In this document: one piece after another, positions 42,993-49,101 of the stretch
How the letters are laid out: each line of letters opens with the position of its first letter
Numbering within the stretch: position 1 is the first letter of the stretch
Assembly: GCA_007695295.1 (NCBI GenBank)
Contig: REEB01000132.1
Location: 1 to 64,000 of the forward strand
DNA from: Puniceicoccaceae bacterium
GTDB taxonomy: Bacteria > Verrucomicrobiota > Verrucomicrobiia > Opitutales > Opitutaceae
Length of the DNA: 64,000 nucleotides
Direction of reading: 5' to 3'
Position numbers and translations under genes: made by a program
The notes under the pieces: model-generated
What the model saw: the letters and a program-made list of their open reading frames with translations, nothing else
What the model was told of the DNA's origin: nothing
Database searches by the model: none

Positions 42993-45089
42993 CTACCCAT
43001 CCTCGCGGAGGGCGGCGGGGTCGAGCCGCAGTTCATGGCAGGCCTGGATGAAGCTGGAGGCGGACCAGGCCTGGTAGGCCTTGCCCATGGGGCGACCGGT
43101 CGTTCCATGGGCCCATTCATTGAACTCCCACTGGTGGGATTTGCCGAGTTGGTTGAGCTCGGCGACGCGGACCAGTTCTTGGTGGGCAATGTCCCGCAGC
43201 CCGAGACGGTGAATGAAGCGCACCCACATCGCTCCGATGAATGGCCAGATGCCGCCGTTGTGGTAGTGGTTGGGCAAATTGAGGAGATTGACGGTGTAGT
43301 AGCTCCGCCAATCGGGGTCGCCTCCGGTGACGATCGGGTAGAGGTTGGCCACGGGGTAGGGCTGGTTCACGCCCACTCCCCACATGAAACGGAAAGCCGT
43401 TTTGGCCCGCTCGAGGTCGAGGACATTGAAGAGGAAAGCAAGGATGTTACCGAAGACATCGCAGCGCCAGTTGAAACTGAAGGGGGTGACTTCGGCGAGT
43501 AGGTAGTGGGTGTCCCCGAGGGAGGTCTGCTGATCGGCGAAGCTGTAGAGGGAGCCTTCCACGGGCACGGCGGTGGAGGGCCAGAATTTACGCAGGATGG
43601 CGGACTTGATCGTCTGCGCCCAGCGGAGGTAGTCGGCGGCCTTGGAGTAGTCGCCGAGGAGCTCGATCATGCGTCCGTAGGCGATGTTGGCACGGTACCA
43701 GAGGACCTCGTCATAGAGGACATTGTAACTGCGGCCGAAGAGGTCGGTCCAGTCGCCCGCTTCGGGGATTTCAAGGAGGGCGTCGTTGTTGCTGTCGTGG
43801 GCGGCGAGCCAGTCCATGGCGCGCTGGAGGCGGTCCTCGTAGTGGGTGAGAAATTCGAGGTCGCCGGTGGCATGGATGAACTCGTAAAAGGCGATGATGA
43901 GCCAGATGCCGCTGTCGATGGAAGCGATGCCGCCGACGCCGGAGTAGTCCGGGGTGTCGTTGTCGATGCGGACATTGGCGGGGATCTGGCCGTTGGGCGA
44001 GATGTGGCGGAGGAGGGTTTCGAGGGTGCGGCGTTGGCAGGCGCGAATTTCGGGATCCTTGATGCCGAGGGTGCCGATGAGGGTGATGGCGCCGTCGCGC
44101 CCCCAGACAGAGCGGTAGTTGACGTCGGTGCCGGTGACCTCGTTGTCGTTGAGCGAGCAGGCGGAAAAGCCAAGGGGGGTGAGGTTGCGGCGGATGGCGC
44201 CAAGGGCTTCGTCGTAGGCCTTGGAGATGAAGGCACGCTGGTCGGGGCTGAGTTCGTGGAGCTCCTCGGCGTCGAAGAGCATGGCGATCTCCGGCTCGAG
44301 CCCCGCTTTTTCCGCCCCGGAATCCGGTTCGTAAACGGGAATGCCCTTGAGGACGTCGAAGTGGCGAAGACCGTCGAGGACGCCGTCGGCACAGGTGCCG
44401 TCGGCCGTGTAAGCGTCAAGCTCGACGGTGGCCTCGAAAAGCTCGGGCTGGGCGTTTTCGACAATGATGCGTTTGACGCCCTCGATCCGGAACATGGAGC
44501 TGTCGTTGCCGCTGTCGCCGGCAACAATGACTTGGGAAGGTTTCAGCTTGAGGTGGTCGATGAGCCACTTGAGGGCGTTGCCCTTGTCGGCCCAGCGGGG
44601 GAGGATATCAAGGTCGCGGGCGCTGGAGTAGATGAGATTGATGTCGAGTCCGGCCCGCTCGAGCTCGGCGCGGAGCCGGTTGATCTGCTCGGCGGAGGCG
44701 TCGTAGAAGTACCAGCTTGATTTGAAGGCGTTTTGAAACTCGGAGGCCTGTTTTTCGACGTTGGGGTAATGGGAGAGGATCTCTTCGATCTTGGCCAGAT
44801 CCCAGCCTTGGACGCGGTTGCGGGTGAAGGCTTCGAGCGGGCGCTTTTCGCGGCAGTCGTAGATGCTGGTGCCGACTCCACAGACGAAGAAGTCCGGCTC
44901 CGGCAGGCGTATTTTCCGGATGAAGCGGCGGGTGTCATTGAGGAGCCGGCCGGTGTTGTAGCAGAGGAGGGGGGCGCGGCTCTTTTTGGCGGCGCGGAGC
45001 CGTTCCCAGGTATCGCGAAAGGCGAGGGTGGCATCCGCCTTGCCGGCGAGGGTGCCATCGAGGTCGGACGAGAGCAGTTTAATCTGCAT
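42993..45089 (-). CDS. HAD-IIB sucrose-phosphate phosphatase-like domain fused to a GH100-like hydrolase domain
   Basis: A 698-residue two-domain enzyme. Residues 1-250 are a Cof-type HAD phosphatase like sucrose-6-phosphate phosphatase: nucleophile motif DLDGT (Asp9, Asp11) and metal motif GDSGNDSSM. Residues about 290-690 are an (alpha/alpha)6 hydrolase. VWGRDGA (Trp329, Arg331, Asp332), NGQIPANVRID and SIDSGIWLIIAFYEF recall neutral/alkaline invertases of GH100 more than amylo-1,6-glucosidases. It overlaps the upstream glycosyltransferase by 11 bp. The likely reading is dephosphorylation of a disaccharide phosphate by domain 1 and cleavage of a related disaccharide by domain 2; the second step is inference. 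Confidence 0.85.
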   Translation of the reverse strand: MQIKLLSSDLDGTLAGKADATLAFRDTWERLRAAKKSRAPLLCYNTGRLLNDTRRFIRKIRLPEPDFFVCGVGTSIYDCREKRPLEAFTRNRVQGWDLAKIEEILSHYPNVEKQASEFQNAFKSSWYFYDASAEQINRLRAELERAGLDINLIYSSARDLDILPRWADKGNALKWLIDHLKLKPSQVIVAGDSGNDSSMFRIEGVKRIIVENAQPELFEATVELDAYTADGTCADGVLDGLRHFDVLKGIPVYEPDSGAEKAGLEPEIAMLFDAEELHELSPDQRAFISKAYDEALGAIRRNLTPLGFSACSLNDNEVTGTDVNYRSVWGRDGAITLIGTLGIKDPEIRACQRRTLETLLRHISPNGQIPANVRIDNDTPDYSGVGGIASIDSGIWLIIAFYEFIHATGDLEFLTHYEDRLQRAMDWLAAHDSNNDALLEIPEAGDWTDLFGRSYNVLYDEVLWYRANIAYGRMIELLGDYSKAADYLRWAQTIKSAILRKFWPSTAVPVEGSLYSFADQQTSLGDTHYLLAEVTPFSFNWRCDVFGNILAFLFNVLDLERAKTAFRFMWGVGVNQPYPVANLYPIVTGGDPDWRSYYTVNLLNLPNHYHNGGIWPFIGAMWVRFIHRLGLRDIAHQELVRVAELNQLGKSHQWEFNEWAHGTTGRPMGKAYQAWSASSFIQACHELRLDPAALREDG

Positions 45090-46434
45090 ATTCCGACCAG
45101 TTGTGACCACCGGAGAGACCCGAAAAGCTGAACGGGCCGGACTCGCGGGCCTCGACCGCGCTGAGCAACTGCTGGGCGATGCCGGTCCAAGTGAAGAGGC
45201 TGCGGACACGGTTGGCGCCCGTCTGACTCATGCGCAGGTGGAGGCCCCGGTAGCGCAGGGGTTTGAGCAGGGTGATGCCGAAGTCCTCCTTGTCGAAGGT
45301 GTCGCAGTAGAGGGCGTGTTCGCCGAAGTTGACGGCGCGGTGAAGGCCGCCGTGGGTGGTCATGACGGTGGGCGTGCCGCAGGCCATGGCCTCGATCGCG
45401 GTCATGCCGAAAGGCTCATAGCGACTGGAGAGGACAAAAACATCGGCGGCGCGGTAGAAGTCGGGGAGGTCCTCCTCGGAAACGGAGCCGGTCAGGGTGA
45501 CGCGGTCGTGGAGATTGTAATCGGCGATGAGCTTGCGCAGCTCCTCGAGCAGACCCTGCTCGGTGACGCTCTCGTTGCTGGTGCCGACGGCGAGGGTGAG
45601 GTAGGCATCGGCCTCGCGTTCGGCGACGAGACTGAAGGCATGGATGAGGAGGTCGAAACCCTTGTTGTGGGCGAGGCGGCCGAGGGAGACGATGGTCTTG
45701 CCGCGGAAATTGAATTTCTCCCGCAGGACCGTGCGGGTGGCCTCACTGACGGGGTAGAAGCGGTTGTCGTCGTAGCCGGGGGGGATCATCCGGAGTTTGC
45801 TCGGCCGCAGTTCATAGTCCTCCTTGAGCATGTCAAGCTGGGGAGGGGTGGTGGCGATGACGAGGTCGGCTTCCTGGTAGAGAATGCGTTCGTGGTGGAT
45901 GCGGCGGGAGAAGTTGTACTTTTCCTCGAAGGACTCCTGGTTGTCCGGGAAGTCGGTCTCCATCTGCCTTTTTTTCCAGGTGCCGATGGAGTGGGGGGTG
46001 TGGATGTGAGGGATACTGAGTACTCCGGAAAGGTGTTCGCCGGCGAGGCCGGCATCCCAGTAGTGGCTGTTGAGAAATTGGTAGTTGAGTTTCTCCTTTT
46101 TGATCCGGCGGAGGGCGTGCTCACCCCATTCTGGAAGTTTTTTATAGAGGTATTCCTTGGGGATGAAGTCCTTGCCGCCGCAGGGGGCGCGGAGGATGCG
46201 GACATCGGCGTTGACCTTTTCGGTGGCGGGCTGGTCCTCGAACTGGCGGGTCCAGATGTCGACCTTGTAGCCGAGCTGGGCGAGTTTTTTGCTCAACTCG
46301 AGGACGAAGACCACCTGGCCACCGGTGTCGGGTGCGCCAAGCGGTGGTTCGGCGGCGACATAGCCATGGGTGGAGACCATGGCGATGCGGTCCTTGATGC
46401 GGCGGCGCGGTTTTCGGGAAGTGGTGGTTTTCAT
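45079..46434 (-). CDS. Sucrose-phosphate synthase-like glycosyltransferase (GT4)
   Basis: A 451-residue GT-B enzyme. The N-terminal domain has APDTGGQVVFVLELSKKLAQLG, shown by its ends APDTGGQ and KKLAQLG, the acceptor-site pattern of sucrose-phosphate and sucrose synthases. IHTPHSIGTWKK follows. The C-terminal donor domain has SLGRLAHNKGFDLLI and SSRYEPFGMTAIEAMACGTP with the E-x7-E motif. It probably transfers glucose from a nucleotide donor to fructose-6-phosphate; a mannosylfructose-phosphate product is the main alternative. Coupled with the phosphatase fusion by an 11-bp overlap. Confidence 0.87.
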   Translation of the reverse strand: MKTTTSRKPRRRIKDRIAMVSTHGYVAAEPPLGAPDTGGQVVFVLELSKKLAQLGYKVDIWTRQFEDQPATEKVNADVRILRAPCGGKDFIPKEYLYKKLPEWGEHALRRIKKEKLNYQFLNSHYWDAGLAGEHLSGVLSIPHIHTPHSIGTWKKRQMETDFPDNQESFEEKYNFSRRIHHERILYQEADLVIATTPPQLDMLKEDYELRPSKLRMIPPGYDDNRFYPVSEATRTVLREKFNFRGKTIVSLGRLAHNKGFDLLIHAFSLVAEREADAYLTLAVGTSNESVTEQGLLEELRKLIADYNLHDRVTLTGSVSEEDLPDFYRAADVFVLSSRYEPFGMTAIEAMACGTPTVMTTHGGLHRAVNFGEHALYCDTFDKEDFGITLLKPLRYRGLHLRMSQTGANRVRSLFTWTGIAQQLLSAVEARESGPFSFSGLSGGHNWSEYAD

Positions 46435-46469
46435 GAGACTGGGCTGAGTTGAAAGGGGCGGCCGGGATC

Positions 46470-47066
46470 CTATTTCTGGCGGTCAAATCCCTTGGTCTGG
46501 ACGCCCTCGAGGTTAGCTTTGCTGTGGTCGGGGGTGGCGGTGGCCCCGGGGGCGGGGGTGGCGGGATTGAGGATGCGCCGGCTCGATTTCTGGAAGAAAA
46601 GGTTGTTGGGGACGTTGGTGAGATTGCCGTTTTCATCCTCGATGACGGTGAACATGAGGCTGAGGTCGGCCACCCGCCCGCGGATGTTGTCGCCGAGGAG
46701 CTCGATCTGCTCACCGACCCGGAAGGGTTTGAAAATGATGATCAGGAGCGTGGCCGAGAGGTTGCTCAGCATGCTCCAGACCGCGACAAACCCGATCGCG
46801 ATGAGCCCGAGGACGGCGGAGAGGAAGGTCCAGAAGTTGCCGATGTCGACCCGGTAAGCGCCGAGGATGAGGAGGAAGGTGACCGCGATCAGGCCGTAGC
46901 GGAGGAACATCCGCAAGGGCGTGACGACGACCGAGGGGACATCCTTGGTCTGCTGGAGGCGGTTCACCGCCCGGTGCAGGACGGCCCCGACGATAAGGGC
47001 GGCGAGCAGGATGATGGCGGCAAAGACCGTGTCTTTGATGAAGGCGGAGAGTTCGAATGATTCCAT
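46470..47066 (-). CDS. MscS-family small-conductance mechanosensitive channel-like protein
   Basis: A 198-residue membrane protein with three hydrophobic segments (about 12-32, 52-70, 78-100) and the Gly/Ala-rich pore helix ATLLIIIFKPFRVGEQIEL, followed by the beta domain start GDNIRGRVADLSLMFTVIED. This is MscS-like, with a shortened cytoplasmic part. It would release solutes on osmotic downshock. It lies 35 bp upstream of the sucrose-type genes on the same strand, which fits an osmoadaptation locus. Confidence 0.85.
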   Translation of the reverse strand: MESFELSAFIKDTVFAAIILLAALIVGAVLHRAVNRLQQTKDVPSVVVTPLRMFLRYGLIAVTFLLILGAYRVDIGNFWTFLSAVLGLIAIGFVAVWSMLSNLSATLLIIIFKPFRVGEQIELLGDNIRGRVADLSLMFTVIEDENGNLTNVPNNLFFQKSSRRILNPATPAPGATATPDHSKANLEGVQTKGFDRQK

Positions 47067-47256: not shown

Positions 47257-47706
47257 CTACTCGGTGGTGGTTTCCACGACGCCGTCGAGAGCGGCGTCGG
47301 CGGCGTGCCAGGCGAGGGAAGCGCATTTGACCCGGACGGGGTAGCGGCGCACGCCTTGGAGGGCGGCGACATCGCCGAGTGTCTCCAGCTCCGGGATCTC
47401 GTCCTCCTGTGAAGTGAGGAGGTGGTTGATGGCCCGGAAAGCCTCCCTGACCGCGCCGAGTTTTTTGCCCTTGAGGTGGGTGGTCATGAGGGAGGCGGAG
47501 GCCTTGGAGATGGCGCAGCCCTCGCCTTCGAACTTGACCTCGCGGACGACGTCATCCTCGAGCCTGAGCAGGACCTTGATGTGATCGCCGCAGAGTGGAT
47601 TGTGGCCTTCGGCATGATGGGTGGCCTCGGGCAGCGGACCAAAATTTCGGGGGCGGCGGTTGTGGTCGAGAATGATTTCCTGGTAGAGGTCTTCGAGGTC
47701 GGACAT
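47257..47706 (-). CDS. sufU: SufU/IscU-type iron-sulfur cluster assembly scaffold
   Basis: A 149-residue protein, slightly longer than IscU as expected for SufU. The three conserved Cys lie in NPLCGDH, GEGCAISKASASL and VRVKCASLAW. SufU acts as a sulfur acceptor from SufS. Its ATG shares one base with the sufS stop, so the two are coupled. No sufBCD genes lie nearby. Confidence 0.95.
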   Translation of the reverse strand: MSDLEDLYQEIILDHNRRPRNFGPLPEATHHAEGHNPLCGDHIKVLLRLEDDVVREVKFEGEGCAISKASASLMTTHLKGKKLGAVREAFRAINHLLTSQEDEIPELETLGDVAALQGVRRYPVRVKCASLAWHAADAALDGVVETTTE

Positions 47707-48983
47707 CAGTGAAAGAGTGAGCGGGCTTTGCGGAGGGCGGCCTCGAGGGCGGCGACCTCCTCCGCAGTATTGTAGAAGGAAAAGGAGGCGCGGGCGGTGG
47801 CATTGAGGCCCAGGCGCCGCATGAGCGGCTGGGCGCAGTGGTGGCCGGCCCGGATGGCGACGTTTTCGCTGTCGAGGATAGTGCCGATGTCGTGGGGGTG
47901 GATGCCATCCATGACGAAGGAGACAGCTCCGGCGCGGCGCTCCGGCCGCCCGACGATGGTGAGACCGGGAATGCCTTCGAGGCGGGCGACGGCCTCGGAG
48001 ACGAGGGCATCCTCGCGGCGGGCGACGGCCTCGAGCCCGAGCGCTTCGAGAAAGGCGACGGCCGCGGCCAAGCCGACGGCGCCGGCGATATGGGGGGTGC
48101 CGGCTTCGAAGCGCGCCGGGCTTTTCTGGAAGGTGGTTTGGTCGATCGAGACCAGCTCGATCATGTCACCACCGGTCTGATACGGCGGCATGGAGTCGAG
48201 GTGCTCAAGGCGGCCGTAGAGCAGGCCGATGCCGGTGGGGCCGTAGAGTTTGTGGCCGGAGGCGACCAGGAAATCGCAGCCGAGGGCGCCGACATCCACC
48301 GGCAGATGGGGCAGCGACTGGGCGGCGTCGAGCAGGACCGGCACGCCCTTGGCATGAGCCAAGGCGATGATCTTTTCCGCCGGGTTGACCGTGCCGAGGG
48401 CGTTGGAAAGGTGTACGAGGGCGAGGATCCGGGTGCGGTCGTCGAGCAGCCGGTCGAGCGCCCCGAGGTCGAGATCGCCGGCATCGGTGACCGGAGCGAC
48501 GCGGAACTCCGCCTGCTTTTCGTGGCAGACCTGTTGCCAGGGGACGAAATTGGCGTGGTGCTCGAGGTGGGTGACGACGATATTGTCGCCGGGCCGGAGC
48601 CGGGGCCGGGCGAAGGAGTGGGCGACAAGATTGACGGCCTCGGTGGCGCCGCGGACAAAAACCACCTCCTCGGGAAAGCGCGCCCCGATGAACTTGGCGA
48701 TGCGGGCGCGGGCGCGGTCGTAGGAAGCCGTTGCCTGGGAGGAAAGATAATAAACGCCGCGGTGGATGTTGGCGTTTTCGAGTCGGTAAAAATGATCGAG
48801 GGTTTCCAGGACCTGCCGGGGTTTCTGCGTGGTGGCGGCATTGTCGAGATAGACGAGCGGCTTGCCGCGCGTGCTGCTGGCAAGGATGGGGAACTCCTCG
48901 CGAATGCGGGCGACATTGAGCTCAGCGGAGGCCGAGGCGGAGCCGGATGAAGGTGGTGAAGGCGGTGGTTGGGTCCGCGACAT
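47706..48983 (-). CDS. sufS: Cysteine desulfurase SufS
   Basis: PLP enzyme that removes sulfur from cysteine for Fe-S assembly. The protein is 425 residues. Diagnostic blocks are YLDNAATTQKP, the THLEHHANFVPW pocket, the PLP lysine in ASGHKLYGPTGIG, and the catalytic Cys in RAGHHCAQPLMRRLG. A Ser/Pro-rich 22-residue start precedes the fold. The ATG at 48983 is used; the upstream extension looks non-coding. Confidence 0.96.
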   Translation of the reverse strand: MSRTQPPPSPPSSGSASASAELNVARIREEFPILASSTRGKPLVYLDNAATTQKPRQVLETLDHFYRLENANIHRGVYYLSSQATASYDRARARIAKFIGARFPEEVVFVRGATEAVNLVAHSFARPRLRPGDNIVVTHLEHHANFVPWQQVCHEKQAEFRVAPVTDAGDLDLGALDRLLDDRTRILALVHLSNALGTVNPAEKIIALAHAKGVPVLLDAAQSLPHLPVDVGALGCDFLVASGHKLYGPTGIGLLYGRLEHLDSMPPYQTGGDMIELVSIDQTTFQKSPARFEAGTPHIAGAVGLAAAVAFLEALGLEAVARREDALVSEAVARLEGIPGLTIVGRPERRAGAVSFVMDGIHPHDIGTILDSENVAIRAGHHCAQPLMRRLGLNATARASFSFYNTAEEVAALEAALRKARSLFH

Positions 48984-49101
48984 GATGATGCCACCATAAC
49001 CAGCGACCGGTGGGCCGCCAGTGCAAAGACGCGTTTCGGGGATTGCGGAGAGCGCAGTTTCCGCCCTTGCGGAAGCCGGCACGGATGCTTAAGTCAGCGT
49101 A

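Follow-up and report, generated by a model that had tools for sequence, protein, structure and literature searches.

The 64,000-nucleotide stretch of DNA analysed here (the window: contig REEB01000132.1 of the Puniceicoccaceae bacterium assembly GCA_007695295.1) encodes on its minus strand, at positions 42993..45089, a protein of 698 aa in which a sucrose-6-phosphate phosphatase-like (SPP-like) HAD domain is joined to a GH100-like (alpha/alpha)6 hydrolase domain. The fusion is real and conserved and each of its parts is of a known kind; our literature searches found no description of it, and it is apparently undescribed in the literature searched. We consider it probable, at roughly two in three, that this protein acts with a neighbouring glycosyltransferase (GT4) as a module that both makes and breaks a non-reducing, fructose-containing disaccharide used as compatible solute. 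Within this make-and-break reading, the product is more likely to be sucrose than any other sugar, with mannosylfructose as a serious rival. Opposing steps on one polypeptide chain are rare, and because their ratio is fixed by the fusion, regulation has to reside in the protein; the module is thus a compact test of solute-pool tuning. Phyla in which fructosyl disaccharides have been little studied as solutes (Verrucomicrobiota, Bacteroidota, Spirochaetota, Chloroflexota and others) would also gain a route for making and breaking one.

Three genes lie head to tail on the minus strand, in the order MscS-like short channel (198 aa, 46470..47066), SPS-like GT4 glycosyltransferase (451 aa, 45079..46434) and fusion, with the channel gene 35 bp upstream of the GT4 gene and a gap of -11 bp between the latter and the fusion. 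The initial ORF call had placed the start of the fusion too early, at GTG 45209; since its orthologues align from M(Q)IKLLSSDLDGT, we take ATG 45089 as the start, and the end of the GT4 gene and the start of the fusion therefore really overlap by 11 bp (45079..45089). A SufS-SufU pair (47257-49082) is situated directly upstream on the same strand, and such a pair also lies upstream of the module in another locus (L031).

The fusion ORF matches, in one unbroken frame, the Pfam families S6PP (2e-63), then Glyco_hydro_100 (3.9e-14) and GDE_C (1.3e-11). The phosphatase half (aa 3-245; 44355..45083, minus strand) scores well above the Pfam S6PP cut-off (214.7 bits vs 20.3) and below the equivalog cut-off of TIGR01485 (163 vs 184). 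Its closest solved structure is the Synechocystis SPP 1s2o, both in a PDB sequence search (3e-30) and by fold, and the catalytic residues D9, D11, T46, K169, D192 and D196 are all intact. Judged by these matches, the first 245 aa are a predicted sucrose-6-phosphate phosphatase.

The hydrolase half (aa 270-690; 43020..44282, minus strand) likewise exceeds the Pfam Glyco_hydro_100 cut-off (52.6 bits vs 23.6), with a match mainly to its C-terminal half (568-724), while the N-terminal half is equally GDE_C-like; GDE_C is also above its Pfam cut-off and covers more of the domain than GH100 does. A profile built from 19 hydrolase domains retrieved the GH100 invertases first from the PDB (InvA 5goo at 2.5e-13, InvB, CINV1), followed by a rhamnosidase (1e-4) and a glucosylglycerate hydrolase (0.2). 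An AlphaFold2 model of the fusion (pLDDT 81.8, pTM 0.86), which is of low confidence at the active-site loops 443-454, 507-541 and 579-613, gave the same picture in Foldseek: SPP 1s2o came first, then InvA, InvB and CINV1 (E ~1e-10, TM by target ~0.65-0.69). In InvA the catalytic residues are Asp188 and Glu414, and Arg430 contacts the catalytic Glu (PMC6995568). D449 (codon 43743-43745) and E658 (codon 43116-43118, both minus strand) of the fusion align with D188 and E414, and the PDB alignments reveal no counterpart of R430 in the domain but a three-residue gap in the GK---AYQAW region. By profile and model, the hydrolase domain is closest to the GH100 neutral invertases and not to a glycogen debranching enzyme; it is predicted to work like a GH100 enzyme, and full membership of GH100 is not claimed. 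Homology does not fix its substrate, because R430 is absent, identity to the GH100 structures is ~20%, and solo relatives in Deinococcus and Anaerolineae (35-37% identical) stand in catabolic or unrelated gene surroundings. Two such relatives on Deinococcus plasmids (L141:6986-8278 and L142:6962-8281; 35% identical), annotated as glycoside hydrolase 100, have sugar ABC transporter or aldolase/kinase genes as neighbours. Glycogen debranching enzyme was rejected as an identity for the domain: the archaeal model TIGR01561 yields 21.6 bits where its cut-off demands 364, and profile and fold searches put GH100 first. A search of the window's own genome for GH32 returned one weak match (33.8 bits).

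The sugar donor of the GT4 is less readily assigned. Against the SPS model TIGR02472 it scores 215 bits (cut-off 576), and against MshA 199 bits; this cut-off was dropped as a test for SPS because verified SPSs fall short of it too (T. elongatus 145 bits, H. orenii 322 bits, both partial sequences). The residues that T. elongatus SPS (TeSPS) needs or uses, H158, E331, R105, R178, R249 and E339, have the counterparts H148, E340, K93 (a Lys for R105), R178, R253 and E348 in the window GT4, among them the catalytic H148 and E340 and the phosphate-binding K93 and R178; TeSPS R253 corresponds to N257. The SPS catalytic residues were found in all 14 GT4s examined. In the GT4 tree, the module enzymes (types A and B) separate from canonical SPS and from TeSPS, and for this reason the donor could be GDP-mannose. 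Agrobacterium MfpsA presumably resembles the type A module enzymes.

The full-length fusion is spread over at least eight phyla, at 51-68% identity. From named genomes, often metagenome bins, our scan retained 80 loci at 51-67% identity, nearly all of them encoding the complete fusion, in Verrucomicrobiota, Bacteroidota, Spirochaetota, Chloroflexota, Planctomycetota, Acidobacteriota, Myxococcota and Vulcanimicrobiota. Of 57 relatives, 12 in addition to the window's own genome possess it at 58-63% identity. The distribution is patchy: within the phylum the hydrolase domain is present in 26 of 289 genomes (23 fused, two solo, one weak match), and in a flavobacterial family in 11 of 151. The tree of the hydrolase domain only loosely tracks phyla, a pattern that fits horizontal spread of the fusion without proving it. 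Of 50 aligned fusions, all but L090 and L094 (48) have kept both catalytic centres, and the hydrolase pair and most of its active-site motifs are kept in 49 of the 50 across phyla, which suggests that both domains are probably active.

For the neighbourhood, we counted a co-directional GT4 within 3.5 kb and an MscS gene on the same strand within 4.5 kb, the latter by homology, around 96 non-redundant fusion loci. The GT4 accompanies the fusion in 86 of these, a frequency far above chance expectation, and contig ends lie close to most of the remaining ten. A PfkB sugar kinase, whose best PDB match is a fructokinase and for which NCBIfam gives no separation of fructokinase from ribokinase, is found in 30 of the 96. 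No fructokinase lies next to the module in the window, and the closest homologue (38%) resides on another contig of the genome.

The window channel matches MscS (NF007662, 7e-18; PF00924, 2.5e-11, 44 bits vs 20.2) and retains the pore helix AIGFVAVWS-LSN, with the C-terminal domain absent or short. Short MscS genes were detected before, between or after the other module genes in 13 loci, all verrucomicrobial; their products, that of the window included, comprise ~180-235 aa with pore helix, beta-domain and little or no C-terminal domain. The gene might be a bystander outside the module, given that it is missing from 83 of the 96 loci and that MscS genes are common (six in the window's genome), but we regard this as rather unlikely, since its same-strand recurrence contrasts with an expected rate of ~1% (nominal P 1.9e-11, which is overstated as the loci are related).

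The interpretation in the initial annotation is supported in part; its salt gating and osmotic control stay conjectural, as does the identity of the sugar, for which it had also raised mannosylfructose. An SPS-like gene does overlap the fusion gene, the latter does combine S6PP with Glyco_hydro_100 in one frame, and the suggested survey recovered both a broad distribution and a recurrent GT4 partner. The proposed link to an MscS channel takes the form of a recurring association confined to Verrucomicrobiota. The hydrolase, for which inactivity or a debranching identity had been named as refutations, has intact catalytic residues and lies closer to invertases, and the idea of one module that makes and breaks a sugar gains support at the level of sequence. 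The statement that such a cycle would be futile unless the hydrolase took another sugar proved too strong, as cyanobacteria keep SPS/SPP alongside a salt-inhibited GH100 invertase (PMC6753628).

The fusion, both predicted active sites, the operon structure and their conservation are read directly from sequence; the product, the hydrolase substrate, the gating and the role of the channel are what we infer beyond them. The GT4 would join the hexose of a nucleotide sugar to fructose-6-phosphate, and the HAD domain would strip the phosphate to leave the free disaccharide, which the GH100-like domain would hydrolyse by inversion, with D449 as acid and E658 as base. A fructokinase, adjacent in many relatives and elsewhere in the window's genome, would return fructose to fructose-6-phosphate. 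Pool size would reflect how synthesis and hydrolysis balance; the simplest control would be inhibition of the hydrolase by ionic strength, as in Synechocystis, and MscS may vent the solute on down-shock. With both activities held at a fixed ratio by the fusion, the pool would track salinity if the hydrolase were under ionic control, itself a conjectural step. That the cycle looks futile does not defeat this reading, since Synechocystis likewise runs a separate, salt-inhibited neutral invertase: its sucrose level reflects SPS versus this invertase, which drops to ~15% activity at 145 mM NaCl (PMC6753628). Besides the nearest structures, the conserved residues and the recurrent neighbours, the make-and-break reading is favoured by the one clade whose GT4 partner is a canonical SPS (L128, L131, L132 and L075), by the separate but adjacent genes of L121 and L122, and by L090, where an intact SPP gene accompanies a fusion with a dead phosphatase domain.

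The same logic could apply to mannosylfructose, in which case the GT4 would use GDP-mannose as Agrobacterium MfpsA does and the hydrolase would be a mannosylfructose hydrolase. We hold this to be possible, although tentative. The module GT4s branch away from canonical SPS, and three loci with a GT4 and a separate SPP gene but no hydrolase (L027, L028 and L140 of Paracoccus) match the mfpsA-mfppA layout; the acidobacterial module L059, moreover, is near mannosylglycerate synthesis genes. Four fusions are partnered with canonical SPS (L128 and L131, whose scores of 597 and 613 bits exceed the TIGR02472 equivalog cut-off; L132 and L075 by homology), and all four carry T448M, G452N and N435Q close to the catalytic acid, which looks as though the substrate of the hydrolase had changed together with the GT4. 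This natural covariation between the kind of GT4 and residues 448 and 452 may mark a substrate switch. However, the four fusions constitute one clade (100/100), so that the covariation counts as a single event, and the nearest structures of the hydrolase cleave glucosides; the SPS catalytic residues are conserved as well, though these do not separate donors. We know of no family assigned to mannosylfructose hydrolase activity. A more far-reaching proposal, which we find doubtful, is that the widespread bifunctional enzyme is a self-limiting osmolyte switch with mannosylfructose as solute in most lineages, its hydrolase being the founding mannosylfructose hydrolase that changed to sucrose in the canonical-SPS clade.

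It is improbable that the hydrolase acts on some other sugar, by debranching an alpha-glucan or cleaving another glucoside, and that the fusion merely couples solute synthesis to carbon supply. Such a role would accord with the wide GDE_C match and with solo relatives away from sucrose genes, but the debranching model stays far below its cut-off, GH100 leads by profile (with the next family at 1e-4) and by fold, and the neighbouring kinase is fructokinase-like. Still much less credible is a catalytically dead hydrolase that serves as scaffold or sensor. Inactive phosphatase-like domains are frequent in SPS proteins and offer a precedent for dead partners in this pathway (PMC6753628), and L094 is without D449 and D192; nevertheless, the near-universal retention of the catalytic pair and the survival of the hydrolase as an intact separate gene in two genomes (L121, L122) speak against it.

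The make-and-break module has its closest parallel in the cyanobacterial SpsA/Spp/InvA-InvB set (Synechocystis Sll0626), in which the same three activities are expected, which supplies the nearest structures for both halves of the fusion, and in which the invertase counteracts synthesis and, in Synechocystis, is inhibited by salt (PMC6753628). In that set SPP and invertase are distinct proteins, whereas here they share one chain, the GT4 is of a different lineage and the hydrolase lacks R430. With the GH100 invertases (InvA 5goo, InvB 5z73, CINV1 6ttj) the hydrolase shares the (alpha/alpha)6 barrel, the aligned Asp/Glu pair and a score above the Pfam cut-off; it differs from them in its low identity, the missing arginine, the equally GDE_C-like N-terminal half and the attached phosphatase. 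The Agrobacterium mannosylfructose pathway, which Torres and Salerno (2007, cited in PMC13308351) reportedly described, is said to combine a GT4 (MfpsA) with an SPP-like phosphatase (MfppA) to yield a fructosyl disaccharide, the same kinds of enzyme as in the module; to our knowledge it includes no fused hydrolase. The methanotroph sucrose cluster sps-spp-fruK-ams likewise groups genes for synthesis, cleavage and fructokinase, but cleavage is by amylosucrase (GH13) and no fusion is involved. OtsB1 of M. tuberculosis, a trehalose-phosphatase joined to GH65, likewise links a solute-phosphate phosphatase to a glycoside hydrolase, and differs in sugar and GH family.

Several loci depart from the common arrangement. 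In L121 and L122, SPP, GT4 and hydrolase are encoded by three separate adjacent genes, and as their hydrolases nest inside the fusions in the hydrolase tree, this condition is probably a later split. The L090 fusion has lost its phosphatase nucleophile (D9P), and an intact separate SPP gene is present just upstream, overlapping the fusion start. One genome (G034) possesses both a fused (L024) and an unfused (L028) GT4-SPP pair. The L094 fusion of a Bacteroidetes bin (L094:6001-8055) carries D192N in the phosphatase and D449N in the hydrolase, and its neighbours are a divergent 606-aa GT4 and a uridine-kinase-like gene. In a spirochaete (L062:1982-3729), proV-like osmoprotectant ABC transporter genes, neighbours of osmotic relevance like those near L059, are divergent from the module.
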